57,959 nt of DNA from Herbiconiux sp. (GTDB taxonomy: Bacteria; Actinomycetota; Actinomycetes; Actinomycetales; Microbacteriaceae), in NCBI RefSeq assembly GCF_023264855.1, contig NZ_JAHFUW010000024.1, forward strand, positions 1-57,959. The letters run 5' to 3'. The notes beneath the pieces are model-generated. The model did no database searches. It worked only from the letters and a program-made list of their open reading frames with translations, and was not told the DNA's origin. How positions within the stretch are numbered: the first letter of the stretch is position 1; each line of letters starts with the position of its first letter. Of the stretch, positions 1,914 to 9,267 are shown one piece after another. The position numbers were made by a program, and so were the translations under genes.

Positions 1914-2135
1914 TCGAAGACAACTCGAAATTCGGCGGACAGAGGAGGCTCGAGTGCCGATCCTGACGACCTGAAGCGCCGGCTCCCCTGCACCGCCTAC
2001 TCGGCTGATGCCTCCCCGTCGATTCACGACGTGACTGGCCCGGCGACGACTTCGTACATGCCCGTGGCCGAACGATGACCGCGCGACCACTGGCTATTCT
2101 AGCAAAGGGGCATCCGCCTGCAAGAGGAGAAGCGA

Positions 2136-2993
2136 ATGACGTTGCCGCGTAATCACTGGGTACTCACCTTCGTCTGCGCCGACCTGCCCGGAATCGTGCA
2201 CGCGGTCAGCGGCGCGGTGGTCGAGTCCGGCGGCAACATCACCGAGAGCCAGCAGTTCTCGTCAGCCGACACCGGCCGCTTCTTCATGCGCCTGCAGGTG
2301 GAGGCGGATGCCGGTCGCGAGGTCTTCGAGGCCGCCCTCGCCCCGGTCGCCGCCCGTTACGACATGCAGTGGAAGGTCGATGTGGTGGGCCGCCCGCTGC
2401 GCACCCTCGTGCTGGCCTCCACGGCCGCGCACTGCCTGAACGACCTGCTGTTCCGCCAGCGCGCCGGGCAGCTGCCCGTGGAGGTGCCGCTGGTGCTCTC
2501 CAACCACGGCACGCTGCGCGACCTCGCGCAGTTCTACGACGTGCCGTTCGAGTCGCTCCCGGTGACGGATGCCGCCTCCAAGGCGGCCTTCGAAGACCGC
2601 GTCGTCCGCGCCGTCGAGGAGCACGACATCGAGCTGGTCGTGCTGGCGCGCTACATGCAGATCATCTCCCCTGAGCTCTGCGAGCGCCTCGCCGGCCGCC
2701 TGATCAACATCCACCACTCCTTCCTGCCCGGTTTCAAGGGAGCGAACCCCTACAAGCAGGCGCACGCCCGCGGCGTGAAGCTGATCGGCGCCACCGCCCA
2801 CTTCGTCACGAGCGACCTCGACGAGGGCCCGATCATCGAGCAGAACGTGGTGCGCGTCGACCACACCCGCACGCCCGCCGAGCTCGTCGCCATCGGTCAA
2901 GACGAGGAGAGCCGCACCCTCACCACGGCGGTGAAGTGGTTCGCCGAAGACCGCGTGCTCCTCGACGGCGCCCGCACCATCATCTTCCGGTAG
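2136..2993 (+). CDS. purU: Formyltetrahydrofolate deformylase
   Basis: 285 residues. The enzyme hydrolyses 10-formyl-THF to formate plus THF and balances the one-carbon pool. An N-terminal ACT regulatory domain spans about residues 8-85. The formyltransferase-fold catalytic domain follows, with RYMQIISPE, the Asn/His pair in INIHHSFLPGFKG (N191, H193) and the Asp of DLDEGPI (D229). Length matches E. coli PurU (about 280). A purine-rich ribosome site (AAGAGGAG) lies just upstream of the ATG. A TATTCT hexamer at 2095-2100 could be the -10 element. The gene stands alone and is convergent with the LuxR/nagB-remnant side. It fits with the glyA, purN and purH genes also in this window. Confidence 0.95.
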   Translation: MTLPRNHWVLTFVCADLPGIVHAVSGAVVESGGNITESQQFSSADTGRFFMRLQVEADAGREVFEAALAPVAARYDMQWKVDVVGRPLRTLVLASTAAHCLNDLLFRQRAGQLPVEVPLVLSNHGTLRDLAQFYDVPFESLPVTDAASKAAFEDRVVRAVEEHDIELVVLARYMQIISPELCERLAGRLINIHHSFLPGFKGANPYKQAHARGVKLIGATAHFVTSDLDEGPIIEQNVVRVDHTRTPAELVAIGQDEESRTLTTAVKWFAEDRVLLDGARTIIFR

Positions 2994-3005
2994 CCGTCGA
3001 CCGGA

Positions 3006-3263
3006 CGGTCAGAGGATGACGGGGTCCCAGGTGGGCTTCTGGGCGAAGGCGTCGCGGTAGTAGCCGCCGCCACCGCGCGCGCCTTGCCGGCGCCGAAGGC
3101 CAGCAGCACGAGGCGCTTCGCCCGCAGGATGGTGCCGAGGCCCTGCGTGATGCAGTGCACCGGCACCTCGTCGACCGAGTCGAAGAAGCGCGCGTTGTCC
3201 TCCCGGGTCTGCCGGGTGAGGGTCTTGACCCGCGTCACCGAGGCGAACGAGGAACCGGGCTCG
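3006..3263 (-). pseudogene. Remnant copy of the 3' end of nagB (glucosamine-6-phosphate deaminase)
   Basis: This stretch repeats the last part of the intact nagB (6016-6382) in the same orientation. Bases 3006-3063 are identical to 6016-6073. Bases 3066-3263 match 6185-6382 with a single difference (A at 3154 against T). Between the two blocks 109 bases are missing, which shifts the frame. Similarity stops abruptly at 3263, where unrelated sequence leads into the LuxR gene. It lacks the first half of the enzyme, including the catalytic Asp and the GTDGHIGFNEPG loop, so it cannot make active protein. Near-identity says the duplication is recent. Confidence 0.93.
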
Positions 3264-3298
3264 GCCGGGTTCAACGCTCATTCTGGCTTGGCGCAATT

Positions 3299-5902
3299 CT
3301 ACCGAGGTGTGGCCCACGAGGCAGACGCGGCGGGTAGCTCCGCACGGCTTCGGATGCCCAGCTTCTGGTAGATCCGCTGCAGGTGGGTCTCTACCGTGCG
3401 GATCGAGAGCACGAGCTCCGCTGCGATCTCCCGGTTGCTGGTTCCCGCCGAGGCGAGGGAGGCGATCTGGCGCTCCCGCCGAGAGAGGATCGCGCCGACC
3501 CGCTCCCGCAGGAACGGGGAGGTGGCGAGCCCGCAGACCGCCATTTGTTCCGCCACACGCCGGGACGAGGCCGCCGCCGCCCGGTCGTCGCCGACCCGCG
3601 AATACTGGGTGAAGGCGTGCGAGAAGGCCTCTGCTGCCAAGAGGTGCAGTCCGGTGACGACCGCCGCGTTACCGGCCTCGTCGAACTCCACAGCCAGGAT
3701 TCCCGCGTCCTCTCCCGTGCTCGCCTCGGCCCGCGCCAGGGCCCGCGTATGCCGGATCTGGACGCCGCAGTAGTCGCCCTCGACTTCGCCGGCGAGAGCC
3801 TCGATGCGGTCGATCACCTCCCGCGCGCCACCGGCTCGGGCCGCTATGGACAACGCCACCACGCTGAGGAGGGCATGGCCGGCACGGTCGTGAGCCTCGG
3901 CGGCCCTCACGAAAGCGTCGACGGCCTCTGGCATCCTGCCGCGGCCGGCCTCCAGCCAGCCGAGCCCTTGAAGTGCCGCACCGGCCACGTAGTAGCCGTC
4001 GTCCGGAGCGTCGAGCACGGGCTGCAGGGCCTCGGACGCCGCCTCGAGCTCGCCGATCAGAACGAGCGACCCGGGGAGCCTGGCTCGGATCATCAAGGCC
4101 GCCTGATCGATCCCCATCGGCTCCAGGATCGCCAACGCGGAACGGAACTCCCGGATCGCTTCATGGGCGCGGCCGGCCACCTGCAGGAACTCGCCGAGCA
4201 GCCAGTCGCCGACCGCTTGGGGCGCCGCTTGGCCGAGCGCAGCCATGGCATCCCGCTGGCGGCGGATCGGTTCGATGTTCTCCTCGATGCGTCCGCCTAG
4301 TCCAGCTGCGAGGGCACGACGCATCTGCAGGCGGGACATGTCCGCCCCCACGGGGGCGAGAACTGCCTCGCCGGCGTCCAGGAGCTCGTGAGCATGGGCA
4401 ATCCGTCCGCACAGCACCTCGTCCCAGGCGGCCTCTGCGAGCCGTTCGCCCTCGAACATCTCAGCGGTCACGTCGGGCAGGTCCTCATCCTGCGGGTGCC
4501 GCTCCAGCGCCTCGCGGGTGGAGTCGATGCGCAGGATGGAGGCCAGGTCGATCGAGTCTGCAACAGCGGGTGAATTCGTCGGGAGATCCCAGGAGCGACC
4601 CGGCGTCTCGATGCGCTCGTGCGCGACCCGCACCAGATCGGACAGCGCCCTTCCCCGGTGTCCGTGCGCATCCCCGTGCCGCTCGAGCCGTTCCAATCGC
4701 TCCAGCGCCTGTGCGGAACGGCCGACCTGCAGTTCGGCGGCTGCAAGAGTCATCTCCGCATCGAACCCTCCGCCGTGCTTCACCGCGGCCGAAGCGAGCT
4801 GAAGGGAGAGTTCGCTGCGCGAGAGCTGTAAAGCGGCCGCCGCGGCCCTGGTGAGTGCCGAGCCGTCGACAGCATGCCCGAGCAGCAGACTGTAGCGGGC
4901 CAGCGCCACGAGCTCACCGCCCGCGAGCTCCGCCAGCGGCACCCGGCTGAGCACCTCGACGATGGCCCGCACGAGACGCTCCCTCCGCAACACCCCGATG
5001 GTCTGCGGCAGCACGAGCTCGATGACCGGATCGTGGATCCGCAGTCGACGCCTTCCCGTGGGCCCGAGCACGTCGACGATCCCCTCCTCGTCGAGTCGTT
5101 CGAGCTCCTCGCTGATGCGCTCGATCCCGTCGTCCTCCGGGTCGTGATCTGGGCCCGCGTGCCGCAACTCCTCGATCACTCCGACGACCCGCGATGGACT
5201 GAGCTCGGGAGCGAGGCAGACCAGGTCCAGGATGAGCGTCGTGCGGGGACTCATCGTGGCGAGCGCCGCGATGCGGGCGTGGACGAGGCGCCGGAAGGCG
5301 TCGCTCGGTGGGATCGCGTCGGTGAGACACCAACCCGCCTCCGTCTCGACGAGGACCCCCTTGGTACGGGCCTCCCGGACGGCTTCTTGCAGTACCACAA
5401 GATCGCCGCCCGCCCGGCGAGGCACGAATGCCGGCACCGTGGCGGGGTCCAGAGCCCCGCCGAGGAAGGTGCGTACCGCTTCGAGGAGAGCTGTGCCGGA
5501 CAGCGGAGGTAACTCTATCCGCCGCACTGTTCCATCCCGGCAGAGTCGGTCGAGCGCGGCGGGGAGCGGTTTCCGCAAGCTGGCCGTGACCACGGGTAGC
5601 GTGGTCCCCGAGGTGACAGCCCGCACCAGACGGCCGGCCTGCTCCTCGTCCAGTCGCTCCGCATCCTCACCCACCCAGATCCGGGCGCGGATGTCCTGAT
5701 CGAGCCCGGCGAGTACGGCACGCAGAAAGTGGGTGCGCCCGGCACCGGGTTCACCGATGACGACGATCCCCGTCCCGACCATGAGCGCCGCCCGGGCACT
5801 CTCGATCTCGGCGCTGCGGTCGTTCGCCGAACCACTCACCGCCGTTTGCCCGCCGCCACGTCCGGCACCCATCCCCTTCGTCGAGAACCCCCAGCGACAC
5901 AC
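3299..5902 (-). CDS. Large ATPase-type LuxR-family transcriptional regulator (LAL-like)
   Basis: 867 residues. The N-terminal NTPase segment has a P-loop-like motif, GEPGAGRT at about residues 50-57, where the usual Lys is Arg. An acidic Walker-B-like stretch near RIWVGEDAERLDEE follows. The long middle is rich in Ala/Leu/Glu helices, as in TPR-type sensor regions of MalT/LAL proteins. The last ~65 residues form a LuxR/GerE helix-turn-helix (LSRRERQIASLASAGTSNREI, RTVETHLQRIYQKLGIRSR). The GTG at 5902 gives the longest frame, and an ATG at 5872 is the alternative. It lies downstream of nagB on the same strand and is bounded on both sides by copies of the nagB 3' end, so it looks like a recent insertion. 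Ligand and targets are unknown, and amino-sugar control is only suggested by location. Confidence 0.85.
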   Translation of the reverse strand: MCRWGFSTKGMGAGRGGGQTAVSGSANDRSAEIESARAALMVGTGIVVIGEPGAGRTHFLRAVLAGLDQDIRARIWVGEDAERLDEEQAGRLVRAVTSGTTLPVVTASLRKPLPAALDRLCRDGTVRRIELPPLSGTALLEAVRTFLGGALDPATVPAFVPRRAGGDLVVLQEAVREARTKGVLVETEAGWCLTDAIPPSDAFRRLVHARIAALATMSPRTTLILDLVCLAPELSPSRVVGVIEELRHAGPDHDPEDDGIERISEELERLDEEGIVDVLGPTGRRRLRIHDPVIELVLPQTIGVLRRERLVRAIVEVLSRVPLAELAGGELVALARYSLLLGHAVDGSALTRAAAAALQLSRSELSLQLASAAVKHGGGFDAEMTLAAAELQVGRSAQALERLERLERHGDAHGHRGRALSDLVRVAHERIETPGRSWDLPTNSPAVADSIDLASILRIDSTREALERHPQDEDLPDVTAEMFEGERLAEAAWDEVLCGRIAHAHELLDAGEAVLAPVGADMSRLQMRRALAAGLGGRIEENIEPIRRQRDAMAALGQAAPQAVGDWLLGEFLQVAGRAHEAIREFRSALAILEPMGIDQAALMIRARLPGSLVLIGELEAASEALQPVLDAPDDGYYVAGAALQGLGWLEAGRGRMPEAVDAFVRAAEAHDRAGHALLSVVALSIAARAGGAREVIDRIEALAGEVEGDYCGVQIRHTRALARAEASTGEDAGILAVEFDEAGNAAVVTGLHLLAAEAFSHAFTQYSRVGDDRAAAASSRRVAEQMAVCGLATSPFLRERVGAILSRRERQIASLASAGTSNREIAAELVLSIRTVETHLQRIYQKLGIRSRAELPAASASWATPR

Positions 5903-5920
5903 GCCCGCCCCGGGTGAACC

Positions 5921-5927
5921 ATGTATA
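5921..5927 (-). promoter_or_regulatory. Possible -10 element of the LuxR-type gene
   Basis: On the minus strand TATACAT lies about 18 bases upstream of the GTG at 5902. It is a near-consensus sigma-70-type -10 hexamer in otherwise GC-rich DNA. A recognisable -35 is not visible (TAGCTT at 17 bases is weak). The transcript would start very close to the GTG. Confidence 0.45.
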
Positions 5928-6015
5928 CCCCGCCGGAGACCGGAAAGCTACACGAATCGGACTCCGCTCCGTCAGTCTCCGGGGCGCGCAGATCCTGTCA
6001 TCGTCCTCGCGGCGC

Positions 6016-6382
6016 CGGTCAGAGGATGACGGGGTCCCAGGTGGGCTTCTGGGCGAAGGCGTCGCGGTAGTAGTCGAGCTCGGTGAGGGCGCCGGCGGCG
6101 GCCTCGTCGATCACGACGGTGGCCCGCGGGTGCAGCTGGATCGCCGAGGCCGGCACGCTCGCCGTGAGCGGGCCCTCCAGGGCAGCCGCCACCGCGCGCG
6201 CCTTGCCGGCGCCGAAGGCCAGCAGCACGAGGCGCTTCGCCCGCAGGATGGTGCCGAGGCCCTGCGTGATGCTGTGCACCGGCACCTCGTCGACCGAGTC
6301 GAAGAAGCGCGCGTTGTCCTCCCGGGTCTGCCGGGTGAGGGTCTTGACCCGCGTCACCGAGGCGAACGAGGAACCGGGCTCG
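6016..6382. repeat. Direct repeat (full copy) of the nagB 3' end, partner of 3006-3263
   Basis: This 367-base segment is the parent copy of the remnant at 3006-3263 and lies inside and just past the intact nagB. The two copies are in the same orientation and flank 3264-6015, which contains only the LuxR-type gene. The second copy has lost 109 bases that correspond to 6074-6184 of this copy, give or take the junction. Homologous recombination between the copies could delete the intervening gene. Confidence 0.9.
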
Positions 6383-6807
6383 TTGAAGCCGATGTGGCCG
6401 TCGGTGCCGATGCCCAGGATCTGCAGGTCGATCCCTCCGGAGGCCAGGATCGCGTCTTCGTACCGCTCCCCCGCCGTCTCGATGCCGAGTTGACGGCCGT
6501 CGGGCACGTGCACGGCGGCCGGATTCAGCCCCAGCGGTCGCACCACCTCGGCGGCGATCACCGAGTGATAGCTCTGCGGATGCCCCACCGGGATGCCCAC
6601 GTACTCGTCCAGCGCGAAGCCGCGCACCGCCGAGAGGTCGAGCCCCCCGCGCACCCGCTCGGCCAGCGCCCGGTACACCGGCAGGGGCGTGTCGCCCGTC
6701 GCGAGGCCGAGCACGGCATCCGGTTTCTGTGCCACGAGCCGCTCGATCGCCTCGGCGACGAGCGCTCCGGCGGCGGCGCGACCGCCCACCACGATGACTT
6801 CAGCCAT
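6019..6807 (-). CDS. nagB: Glucosamine-6-phosphate deaminase
   Basis: 262 residues. Converts glucosamine-6-phosphate to fructose-6-phosphate plus ammonia, the last committed step of amino-sugar catabolism. Visible motifs are the active-site Asp in FALDEYVGI (D67) and the loop GIGTDGHIGFNEPGSSF, with D136, H138 and E143 matching the E. coli D141/H143/E148 set. Length matches the family (about 260). The start overlaps the end of the upstream ROK kinase by 8 bases, so it is translationally coupled as the last gene of the sugar operon. Its 3' 367 bases are duplicated at 3006-3263, beyond the LuxR gene. No terminator is visible in the 116 bases between nagB and that gene. Confidence 0.96.
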   Translation of the reverse strand: MAEVIVVGGRAAAGALVAEAIERLVAQKPDAVLGLATGDTPLPVYRALAERVRGGLDLSAVRGFALDEYVGIPVGHPQSYHSVIAAEVVRPLGLNPAAVHVPDGRQLGIETAGERYEDAILASGGIDLQILGIGTDGHIGFNEPGSSFASVTRVKTLTRQTREDNARFFDSVDEVPVHSITQGLGTILRAKRLVLLAFGAGKARAVAAALEGPLTASVPASAIQLHPRATVVIDEAAAGALTELDYYRDAFAQKPTWDPVIL

Positions 6808-7792
6808 GTCCTACGATCTCCACTGTCTGTCGGGGGGCACCCACCAGGGCGGCGCCGACCGCCGCGGCCGGGAAGCCGGCCGGTACGATCTGCAGGCGGT
6901 CCGGCAGTCCGAGCGAGGCCAGGAAGGGCGACTCCTGCGCCCAGGATGCCAGAACCCGCCGCACGGCGTCGAGCAGCCACTCGCCCAGGTTGCTGAGCCC
7001 GCCGCCGATCATCACGATCTCCACGTCGACGGTCAGCACGAGTACCCGCACGGCGGCGGCCACGTTCTCGACCAGGAGCGAACGGATGGCGGCCGCCGTC
7101 GCGTCGCCGGCCTCGGCCGCCGCCAGCAGCGCCCGCACCGGGATCGGATCCTCCGTGGGCCACTGCCGGGCGATCGCCGAGCCCGAGGCCACGGTTTCGA
7201 GGCAGCCGCGCTGACCGCACGCGCAGAGCACGCCCTGCGGATCCACCGGGATGTGCCCGATCTCCCCGGCCGTGCCGCGGGCACCCCGCCAGAGCGCGCC
7301 GTCGATCACGAGCCCCGCCGCGAGGCCGGTCCCGAGGTTGAGATACGCCATCGAGCGCGCGGTGCGCCCCGGCTGCGCCGTCATCAGGTGGTAGGCGCCG
7401 AGCGCGGCGGCCGTCACGTCGTTCTCCACCTCGACCCGGCGAACGGATGCCACGCCCGCGAAGCCGTGCGCCCCGGCATCCGAGGCCTCGGCGGCCAGTG
7501 CTTCGGACAGCCGGCCGCCCACGTCGAGCTCCTCGAAGCCGAGGTTCACCGCGTGCGAGACATGCCCGCGGTGCGGATCGACCTGGCCGGGGATGCCCAC
7601 GCCGATCGACTCGAACTCCGCCGGCCTCACACCCGTGATGTCGGCGATGCGCCGGATGCCCTCCAGCGCCGTGGCGATCACGGCATCCGCCCCGAAACCC
7701 GTGGCCAGCCGCACGCGCTCGACGACGGTGCCGTCGGAGTCGACCGCCACCGCATCCGTCTTGGTGCCGCCGATGTCCAGTCCCAGCCTCAT
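6800..7792 (-). CDS. ROK-family sugar kinase, probably N-acetylglucosamine kinase
   Basis: 330 residues. Phosphorylates a hexose, probably GlcNAc or glucosamine, with ATP in the cytoplasm. The N-terminal phosphate loop is LGLDIGGTKTD (residues 3-13). The catalytic Asp lies in VENDVTAAALG (D125). The ROK zinc site is EIGH (177-180) followed by CACGQRGC (190-197). There is no N-terminal DNA-binding domain, which separates it from the ROK repressor of the same locus. It overlaps the upstream hydrolase by 4 bases (ATGA) and nagB by 8. Its place between NagZ and NagB points to GlcNAc released from imported disaccharides. Glucokinase activity cannot be excluded. Confidence 0.88.
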   Translation of the reverse strand: MRLGLDIGGTKTDAVAVDSDGTVVERVRLATGFGADAVIATALEGIRRIADITGVRPAEFESIGVGIPGQVDPHRGHVSHAVNLGFEELDVGGRLSEALAAEASDAGAHGFAGVASVRRVEVENDVTAAALGAYHLMTAQPGRTARSMAYLNLGTGLAAGLVIDGALWRGARGTAGEIGHIPVDPQGVLCACGQRGCLETVASGSAIARQWPTEDPIPVRALLAAAEAGDATAAAIRSLLVENVAAAVRVLVLTVDVEIVMIGGGLSNLGEWLLDAVRRVLASWAQESPFLASLGLPDRLQIVPAGFPAAAVGAALVGAPRQTVEIVGHG

Positions 7793-9267
7793 GCGCGCAC
7801 GGTCCTTTCAGCCAGGGCGGCGGCGAGCGCGTCGGCGACCAGAGCCGATGCGCCGTAGGTCGCGATCCCCGAATAGCGCGGGTCGTCGCCCGGCCAGCCG
7901 AGATCCACCGTGACCACCCGCTCGTGGCGGGCGCGCAACGCGTCGATCAGGTGCACGACCACGGGTCGGCGCTGGTTGTCCCGCCCGACCACCAGAACGG
8001 ATGCCGCTGGAGGAATATGATCGATCCGCTCGATCGGCCCGGCCGTGGAGACAGGGAACACCGGCAGATCGACGCCGGCCGCGGCGAGCGCCGGAGAGGG
8101 ATCCCACGGAACCTCGCCGATCGCGTTGTTCGGCTCCGTGTCCACCCGCACGAGCACCCAGCCCGGGCCGCTCAGCGCGAGTGCGGCGGCCGGCTCCATG
8201 GCGAACGAGGCGGCCACGCCGGCCGCATCCGGAACCGGAACCGGAGCCGGAACGGTCTCCGAGCCGACCGCCCGCGAGTCGTCCCACCCGCGCAGCACCT
8301 CGGCGAGCCTGCGCAACCGCACGGTCGCGTCGGCCAGCCGTTCGACCGGCAGCTCGCCCGACCCCAGCGCCTCCGCGATGCGGTCGTGGATCTCCTCGAG
8401 CTGCGCCGCCGTGTTCTTCGTGCCGATGCACAACAGGTCGCACCCCGCGGCGAGCGCACGCACGGCCGCGGTCGGGATGCCGATCGTTCCGCTCGCCCCC
8501 ACCATGTCCAGCGCGTCGCTCACGATGACGCCCCGGAAGCCGAGCTCCCCGCGCAACAGCCCCTGCAGGACGGCCGGCGAGAAGGTGGCGGGCTGCACGG
8601 GGTCGACCTGTGGCAGCAGCACATGGCTGGTCATCACGGTGAGTGCGCCCGCCTCGATCGCCGCGGCGAACGGCTGCAGCTCGCGCGCACGCAGCACCTC
8701 CAGCGGCACGTCGACGCTCGGCAGCGCGAGGTGGGAGTCCTCGGCGGTGTCGCCGTGCCCCGGGAAGTGCTTGAGGTTGGCGGCGACGCCCTGCGACTGG
8801 AGCCCTGCCGTCCAGGCGGCGCCGTGCCGCGACACGAGCCCGGGCGCGGCGCCGAAACTGCGCACGCCGATCACGGGGTTCAGCGGGTTCGAGTTGATGT
8901 CGACATCCGGAGCCAGGTCGAGGTTCACGCCCACGGCGCGCAACTCGGCACCGACCGCGGCCCCCACCGCACGTGTGGCGGCGACGTCGTCGATCCGCCC
9001 GAGCACCGCGTTGCCCGGGAACGGCGCCCCGCGGTCGTAATAGAGGCGGGTGACGTCGCCGCCCTCCTCGTCGATGGCGATCACGGCATCCGGATTCGCG
9101 GCCCGGATGGCGTCGGTCAGCTCGCGCAGCTGCGTGGTGTCGACCACGTTCTCGCCGAACAGGCACACGCCGCCGAGCCCCTCGCGAAGCAGCCCGTCCA
9201 CCCACGCGGGCAAGACCGTCCCCTCGAATCCGGGCAGCAGGGTGCCGAGGATGTCGCGCCGGCTCAT
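7789..9267 (-). CDS. nagZ: Glycoside hydrolase family 3 beta-N-acetylhexosaminidase (NagZ-like)
   Basis: 492 residues with no signal peptide, so cytosolic. GH3 features are IDEEGGDVTRL (65-75), KHFPGHGDTAEDSHLALP (166-183), containing the NagZ His-Asp dyad loop with H179, and VIVSDALDMVG, whose D251 is the expected nucleophile. NagZ enzymes remove beta-1,4-linked GlcNAc from chitobiose or muropeptide fragments. A C-terminal extension beyond the ~340-residue catalytic domain contains a second alpha/beta segment (VLVRVDTEP, VLVVGRDNQRRP). The ATG at 9267 overlaps the permease stop (ATGA). A much longer frame runs upstream but lies entirely inside the permease gene. It sits between transporter and kinase genes, consistent with intracellular cleavage of imported disaccharides. 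Confidence 0.9.
   Translation of the reverse strand: MSRRDILGTLLPGFEGTVLPAWVDGLLREGLGGVCLFGENVVDTTQLRELTDAIRAANPDAVIAIDEEGGDVTRLYYDRGAPFPGNAVLGRIDDVAATRAVGAAVGAELRAVGVNLDLAPDVDINSNPLNPVIGVRSFGAAPGLVSRHGAAWTAGLQSQGVAANLKHFPGHGDTAEDSHLALPSVDVPLEVLRARELQPFAAAIEAGALTVMTSHVLLPQVDPVQPATFSPAVLQGLLRGELGFRGVIVSDALDMVGASGTIGIPTAAVRALAAGCDLLCIGTKNTAAQLEEIHDRIAEALGSGELPVERLADATVRLRRLAEVLRGWDDSRAVGSETVPAPVPVPDAAGVAASFAMEPAAALALSGPGWVLVRVDTEPNNAIGEVPWDPSPALAAAGVDLPVFPVSTAGPIERIDHIPPAASVLVVGRDNQRRPVVVHLIDALRARHERVVTVDLGWPGDDPRYSGIATYGASALVADALAAALAERTVRA

Follow-up and report, generated by a model that had tools for sequence, protein, structure and literature searches.

Insertion with long target duplication, reportedly described by Nobusato et al. 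in 2000 (Gene 259:99), is the described pattern closest to the locus analyzed here. The relevant sections of three published studies (PMC3031569, PMC1643837, PMC2749054) document it mainly for restriction-modification genes. A second body of work, represented by the part of PMC2884548 that deals with small variable segments, attributes such segments to illegitimate or homology-assisted recombination, and homology-independent duplication is taken up in the discussion of PMC4432121.

The locus lies in the window, by which we mean the whole stretch of DNA analyzed, an entire contig of 57,959 bp from a Herbiconiux assembly of 97 contigs and 4.37 Mb; the feature is located 3 kb from the contig end. 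It resembles insertion with long target duplication in having a gene-sized insert, no recognised transposition genes (neither transposase nor integrase), a long direct target duplication (367 bp, one copy of which is now 258 bp), and an empty site in relatives. The known cases mainly concern restriction-modification genes that differ between Helicobacter pylori strains, whereas here a LuxR-type regulator differs between Herbiconiux species; restriction-modification cargo is an association of the pattern rather than its definition. The locus also recalls the segments treated in PMC2884548, which, in the part concerned with them, are short variable DNA without mobile-element genes, some with terminal direct repeats; those repeats are mostly shorter than 30 bp, and segments of 20 to 500 bp receive most of the attention, in contrast to the whole gene and 367-bp duplication found here. 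The nagB insertion adds a good new example to a known kind of event, outside the restriction-modification genes.

A repeat search of window positions 2000 to 8000 found the 3′ end of nagB a second time, in direct orientation, beside the stop codon of purU (Table 1). Exact comparison resolved the repeat into two blocks, one identical at 58 of 58 positions (3006-3063 and 6016-6073) and one at 197 of 198 (3066-3263 and 6185-6382), with an A in the remnant and a T in the intact copy at the single mismatch. Between the blocks, alignment of the two copies gives the remnant a net loss of 109 bp, and the letters are compatible either with a 109-bp deletion and one substitution or with a 112-bp deletion and a gained CCG triplet. 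The longest exact run common to both tails is also 109 bp. Chance is excluded by the BLAST comparison of flank against flank, in which the two blocks give E = 2e-100 and 2e-25. The direct duplication of the nagB tail is real, and the preliminary description, which had claimed near-identical direct repeats and a 109-base loss, was exact to the base, coordinates included.

Table 1. Features of the purU-nagB locus (positions in the window)
Feature	Coordinates	Strand	Basis
purU, formyltetrahydrofolate deformylase	2136..2993	+	ORF; NCBIfam TIGR00655 above cut-off
Remnant, original nagB 3′ end beside purU	3006..3263	-	Direct repeat of 6016-6382
Junction of net 109-bp loss within remnant	3063..3066		Alignment of the two copies
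Sole substitution of the 198-bp block	3154..3154		A here, T at 6273
Inserted segment between the nagB tails, 2,752 bp	3264..6015		Repeat coordinates; absent from the purU-nagB interval in 14 of 14 relatives
LuxR-type regulator, 867 aa	3299..5902	-	ORF; PF00196; family alignment
luxR leader within the insert, 113 bp	5903..6015	-	No genus DNA match inside
Second copy of the 367-bp target, now the working nagB 3′ end	6016..6382	-	Direct repeat
nagB, glucosamine-6-phosphate deaminase, intact, 262 aa	6019..6807	-	ORF; NF001684 above cut-off

The flanking genes are those named in the preliminary description. The NagB protein scores 228.0 bits against TIGR00502, slightly under the cut-off of 236.9, and has full-length matches in 14 relatives, with one more match cut by a contig end. 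A ROK-family gene lies upstream of nagB, and the purU stop codon is 15 bp from the nagB stop codon of the remnant. The segment between the two tails, earlier described as 2.75 kb with a lone LuxR regulator, carries one convincing open reading frame in the ORF list, the LuxR-type gene. No transposase or integrase gene was found in it, either in the ORF list or in a Pfam scan, which was run on the LuxR reading frame. The luxR leader has no DNA match anywhere in the genus, and a promoter and terminator scan of positions 2900 to 6500 returned no promoter-like site (no sigma-70-like site) and no terminator-like one.

LAL-type (large ATP-binding) LuxR regulators, such as MalT, are large proteins with an N-terminal ATPase and a C-terminal LuxR helix-turn-helix (HTH). 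The inserted gene is similar in its size and layout, consisting of an N-terminal P-loop-like motif, a long middle region, and a C-terminal HTH of the GerE/LuxR type (PF00196, 60.1 bits against a cut-off of 23.5; E = 1.6e-16). It departs from that class in that ATPase models stay under their cut-offs (AAA_22, 20.4 bits against 27), and NCBIfam and PDB matches cover the C-terminal part alone. In addition, the conserved GxxGxGR motif has an arginine, in at least 20 of 21 aligned copies, at the position where a Walker A motif is expected to have lysine. From this architecture, the product is a putative nucleotide-binding, signal-sensing transcription regulator. A role in defence was considered and set aside, as the PADLOC matches in three family members cover only the HTH.

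We compared the purU-nagB junction in 15 Herbiconiux relatives, one genome per species. The two genes lie on one contig in 14 of them and on two contigs in the remaining genome (G009); in the 14 comparable relatives they are 84 to 87% identical to the window. Four of the 14 have an empty junction, with stop-to-stop spacings of 9 bp (G007), 24 bp (G014), 42 bp (G008), and 119 bp (G006). In BLAST, window positions 2901 to 3062, which run from the end of purU into the end of nagB, align unbroken to G007, G008, and G014. Together with the empty junctions, this unbroken alignment from purU into the remnant identifies the remnant as the nagB tail that stood there from the start; the added DNA is the LuxR gene plus a second nagB tail that completes nagB. 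The other 10 relatives carry different cargo between the two genes, 1.7 to 17 kb in length. Far from being common to all relatives, a possibility that the preliminary description had raised, the arrangement is confined to the window in this comparison: neither a LuxR match (E = 1e-5) nor a copied nagB tail is present in any of the 14 intervals. Two of the intervals (G001 and G005) contain a second NagB that is 56% identical, and two short matches in the intervals, of 29 bp and 48 bp, involve the other end of nagB.

The insertion is recent, as had been proposed. Of 256 aligned bases, a single one distinguishes the two nagB tails of the window, versus a difference of 13 to 17% between the 367-bp tail and the tails of the 15 relatives, and the empty junctions point the same way. 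The 109-bp stretch that the remnant lacks is present in all 15 relatives, which on this comparison places its loss certainly in the purU-side copy. The substitution probably happened in that copy as well: 13 of 15 relatives carry the T of the intact copy, while G010 and G011 carry the A of the remnant, in a codon that is altered elsewhere too. Decay thus appears to have affected mainly or wholly the remnant, as expected of a leftover copy. The event could be older than it looks if gene conversion has acted between the copies.

Homologues of the inserted gene are found beside many other genes, as the preliminary description led one to look for. A protein search recovered the family in all 16 genus genomes (E ≤ 1e-30), with 23 matches that represent 22 copies, the G006 copy having been matched as two pieces of one open frame, which led us to abandon the idea of a broken gene there. 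These copies occupy about 15 neighbourhoods when neighbour genes are grouped at 50% identity and supplemented by our own tally, for which 13 is the safer floor, since two pairs have single neighbours in common or lie a few kb apart. The genome of the window has one copy at this threshold, the one between purU and nagB. Beyond the genus, the family was found in at least 2 of 292 sampled genomes of the bacterial family (G040 and G204; E ≤ 1e-25) and, at the same threshold, in none of 395 further genomes sampled from the phylum; about three candidates were scored per genome in the former search, which covered 299 genomes including 7 of the genus, and about two in the latter, so relatives may be missed in both. 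In a tree of 21 rows, which includes the G040 sequence and leaves aside those of G014 and G006, the window's gene sits unresolved inside a 13-row group; its nearest copy by identity is G005a (47%). When the flanks were inspected by eye for all genus copies but that of G006 (21 of 22), no common terminal sequence was detected. Up to 4 kb on each side of the 22 other LuxR loci (21 of the genus plus G040), no flanking duplication comparable to that at nagB was found, the flank matches there being short (29 to 48 bp at 77 to 87% identity), some of them inverted. Either such long duplications do not last, or this one is peculiar to the nagB event. A narrow search of the open-access literature returned one editorial for LuxR in Herbiconiux and no report of LAL-family LuxR genes and horizontal gene transfer in actinobacteria.

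The reading that we favor, with moderate confidence, is a recent single-gene insertion of luxR and its leader at the convergent purU-nagB junction, in which the 367-bp nagB 3′ end was duplicated as the target in one step of fragment capture. A DNA fragment carrying a single gene would have been captured at a chromosome break, and the long duplication would have arisen at once if the chromosome ends, or sister chromosomes, were joined with an offset of 367 bp. The joining could have proceeded by end joining or by homology-assisted illegitimate repair; end joining is possible because Ku is encoded in 15 of the 16 genus genomes, including that of the window. Such an insertion would have been tolerated because the duplicated tail left nagB whole, and the outer copy would have been free to decay. 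The repair step is one that we infer, and the absence of a comparable duplication from the 22 other LuxR loci compared speaks against this reading, as does the presence of the remnant's base in 2 of 15 relatives.

The same structure is also predicted by Campbell-type integration, in which a circle carrying luxR and a 367-bp nagB 3′ fragment of the same species would have recombined once with the chromosomal nagB, leaving exactly two direct copies around the insert in the observed order. We regard this route as possible but doubtful. It requires a prior event that joined luxR to nagB DNA of the same species, the 2,752-bp insert has no recognised vector or replication gene, and candidate carriers are wanting in the collections searched: no plasmid record has a place that covers 80% of the LuxR protein (the best covers 33%), and the phage collection yielded no match to it. 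Of the two mechanisms named in the preliminary description, we prefer duplicative insertion to a single crossover, as a preference and not as a proven case.

The remaining explanations fare less well than fragment capture and Campbell integration. An origin in two steps, with a tandem duplication of the nagB tail followed by entry of luxR between the copies, draws on homology-independent tandem duplications of the kind that the pertinent section of PMC4432121 reports for bacteria; it would nevertheless need two events in quick succession, with luxR landing precisely between the copies, and no tandem nagB tail is seen among the 14 relatives whose interval is intact, so that we consider it unlikely. 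Many genomic islands complete the 3′ end of a gene, and usual attachment-site cores are far shorter than 367 bp. An integrase-type island at the nagB 3′ end, reduced to one gene and with attachment sites as its repeats, would share the first property, as the insert does complete a gene 3′ end, but the insert contains no integrase reading frame, its core would be too long for a usual attachment site, and inspection of 21 LuxR copies by eye showed no shared ends; this origin is very unlikely. Least probable of all is an assembly artefact, which a draft in many contigs and a feature near a contig end might invite, since the copies differ by the 109-bp loss and a substitution, have no exact run longer than 109 bp in common, and lone luxR inserts also occur in assemblies of 2 to 4 contigs (G003, G012, and G013).

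Direct repeats offer a route by which the insert could be lost again, and the expectation that recombination might remove the gene holds in part. In silico, recombination within the 58-bp block recovers the 262-aa NagB together with the 15-bp spacing; within the 198-bp block, it yields a NagB in which a frameshifted tail takes the place of the last 53 residues. Of the two blocks, only the shorter one gives back an intact nagB, owing to the 109-bp loss in the remnant. Decay of a repeat can in this way leave an insert partly locked in, as recombination in the longer block now leads to a broken nagB.

LuxR genes also stand as lone inserts at five further sites, relative to genomes in which the flanks lie close together. 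Site B (L060) is filled in 3 genomes and empty in 12 of 16, with flanks 6 to 55 bp apart and the window's genome among the empties, a count made without a call for G009. Site A (L084) is filled in 5 genomes and empty, with spacings of about 66 to 151 bp, in G000, G001, G004, G008, and G013; four others (G005, G006, G011, and G015) have 0.95 to 2.2 kb of other DNA there, G002 is rearranged, and the G009 copy lies on the other side of the neighbouring gene. At the G013 site, the flanks are 11 bp apart in G003, 38 bp in G004, and no more than 198 bp in 11 of the 15 relatives, with 0.8 to 2.2 kb in three relatives and a split in G009. The spacing at the G004 site is 22 bp in G013, 18 bp in G003, and up to 368 bp in the 9 relatives that could be decided, the other 6 being without a call. 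The G008 site has 51 to 130 bp in 13 of 15 relatives and about 10 kb in the window's genome, with no call for G009. The inserts measure about 2.6 to 2.8 kb, with 3.1 kb in G007, and the G001 insert, at about 4.6 kb, includes about 2 kb of other DNA. The G002a site has no clear syntenic empty junction, and the comparison leaves aside G015a, G010a, G002b, G005b, G006, and the site shared by G012b and G015b. No LuxR scraps were detected (E = 1e-4) in the relatives' stretches at five sites (L090-L125). Since copies at the same site tend to group in the tree, the filled and empty states of sites A and B may be due not to gain alone but also to loss, or to exchange mediated by the homologous flanks.

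Closely related species differ in both the site and the sequence of their LuxR genes. Three genomes that are 91 to 94% identical in purU and nagB (G003, G004, and G013) have four LuxR copies at four sites, with amino acid identities of only 33 to 40%, which means that these copies are not one recently moved gene. G007 and G014 are closer still, at 95.5% in purU and nagB, and the site-A LuxR of G007 is 41% identical to that of G014. A broken scrap beside the G007 gene matches the N-terminal part of the G014 LuxR gene at 91% over 130 bp and is, judged from this match, the scar of a replaced older LuxR copy. A BLAST hint that the G007 LuxR gene is itself chimeric was not upheld, as alignment at the base level revealed HTH conservation only.

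Collectively, these observations lead us to propose, tentatively, a genus-restricted "wandering gene" family with one or two LuxR copies per genome, the address and allele of which would turn over between close species through the capture of lone gene-sized fragments, with no transposase involved. That a lone regulator should turn over genus-wide in both address and allele is what a specialist would find surprising. If the proposal is true, such turnover would be consistent with diversifying selection on the regulator, through conflict, recognition, or the sensing of a niche, and the copy at nagB would be one caught just after landing. The locus offers a young and readable example of single-gene gain without mobile-element machinery. 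Should the pattern hold across the genus, close relatives would allow tests of how single genes are turned over and of the selection that drives this.

The interval between purU and nagB, where the window carries its LuxR-type regulator gene, is a variable slot across the genus Herbiconiux (stretches L021-L036). It is empty in 4 of the 14 relatives and holds differing cargo of 1.7 to 17 kb in the other 10, including a second NagB, 56% identical, within the interval of G001 and G005. The N-terminal part of the regulator itself contains a Walker A-like motif with an arginine at the usual lysine position, and this replacement is shared by at least 20 of the 21 aligned members of the LuxR family.

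Coordinates of the features described at LuxR genes and insertion sites
Feature	Location
Walker A-like motif, window regulator	window 5700-5800
DNA at the position of the G008 LuxR insert, window's own genome	G000:C91:30933-40900
Putative superoxide dismutase gene, site B	L060:6580-7192
LuxR scrap, site A of G007	L084:9311-9643

The counterpart of the lone LuxR insertion site of G008 consists of short gaps in 13 relatives; the window's own genome has about 10 kb of DNA at this position. Several genomes carry a second, near-identical copy (90 to 96% over ∼610 bp) of the gene adjoining LuxR site B, which was assigned by eye as a putative superoxide dismutase, and four contigs of the window's genome (C13, C62, C63, and C65) terminate within this gene.

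At site A, the LuxR gene lies on the opposite side of the neighboring gene in G009 (L077) relative to five relatives (L081, L083, and L084 compared). Next to the intact LuxR of G007 lies a broken scrap of a different LuxR, one of the G014 type, and this scrap is the scar of a gene replacement.
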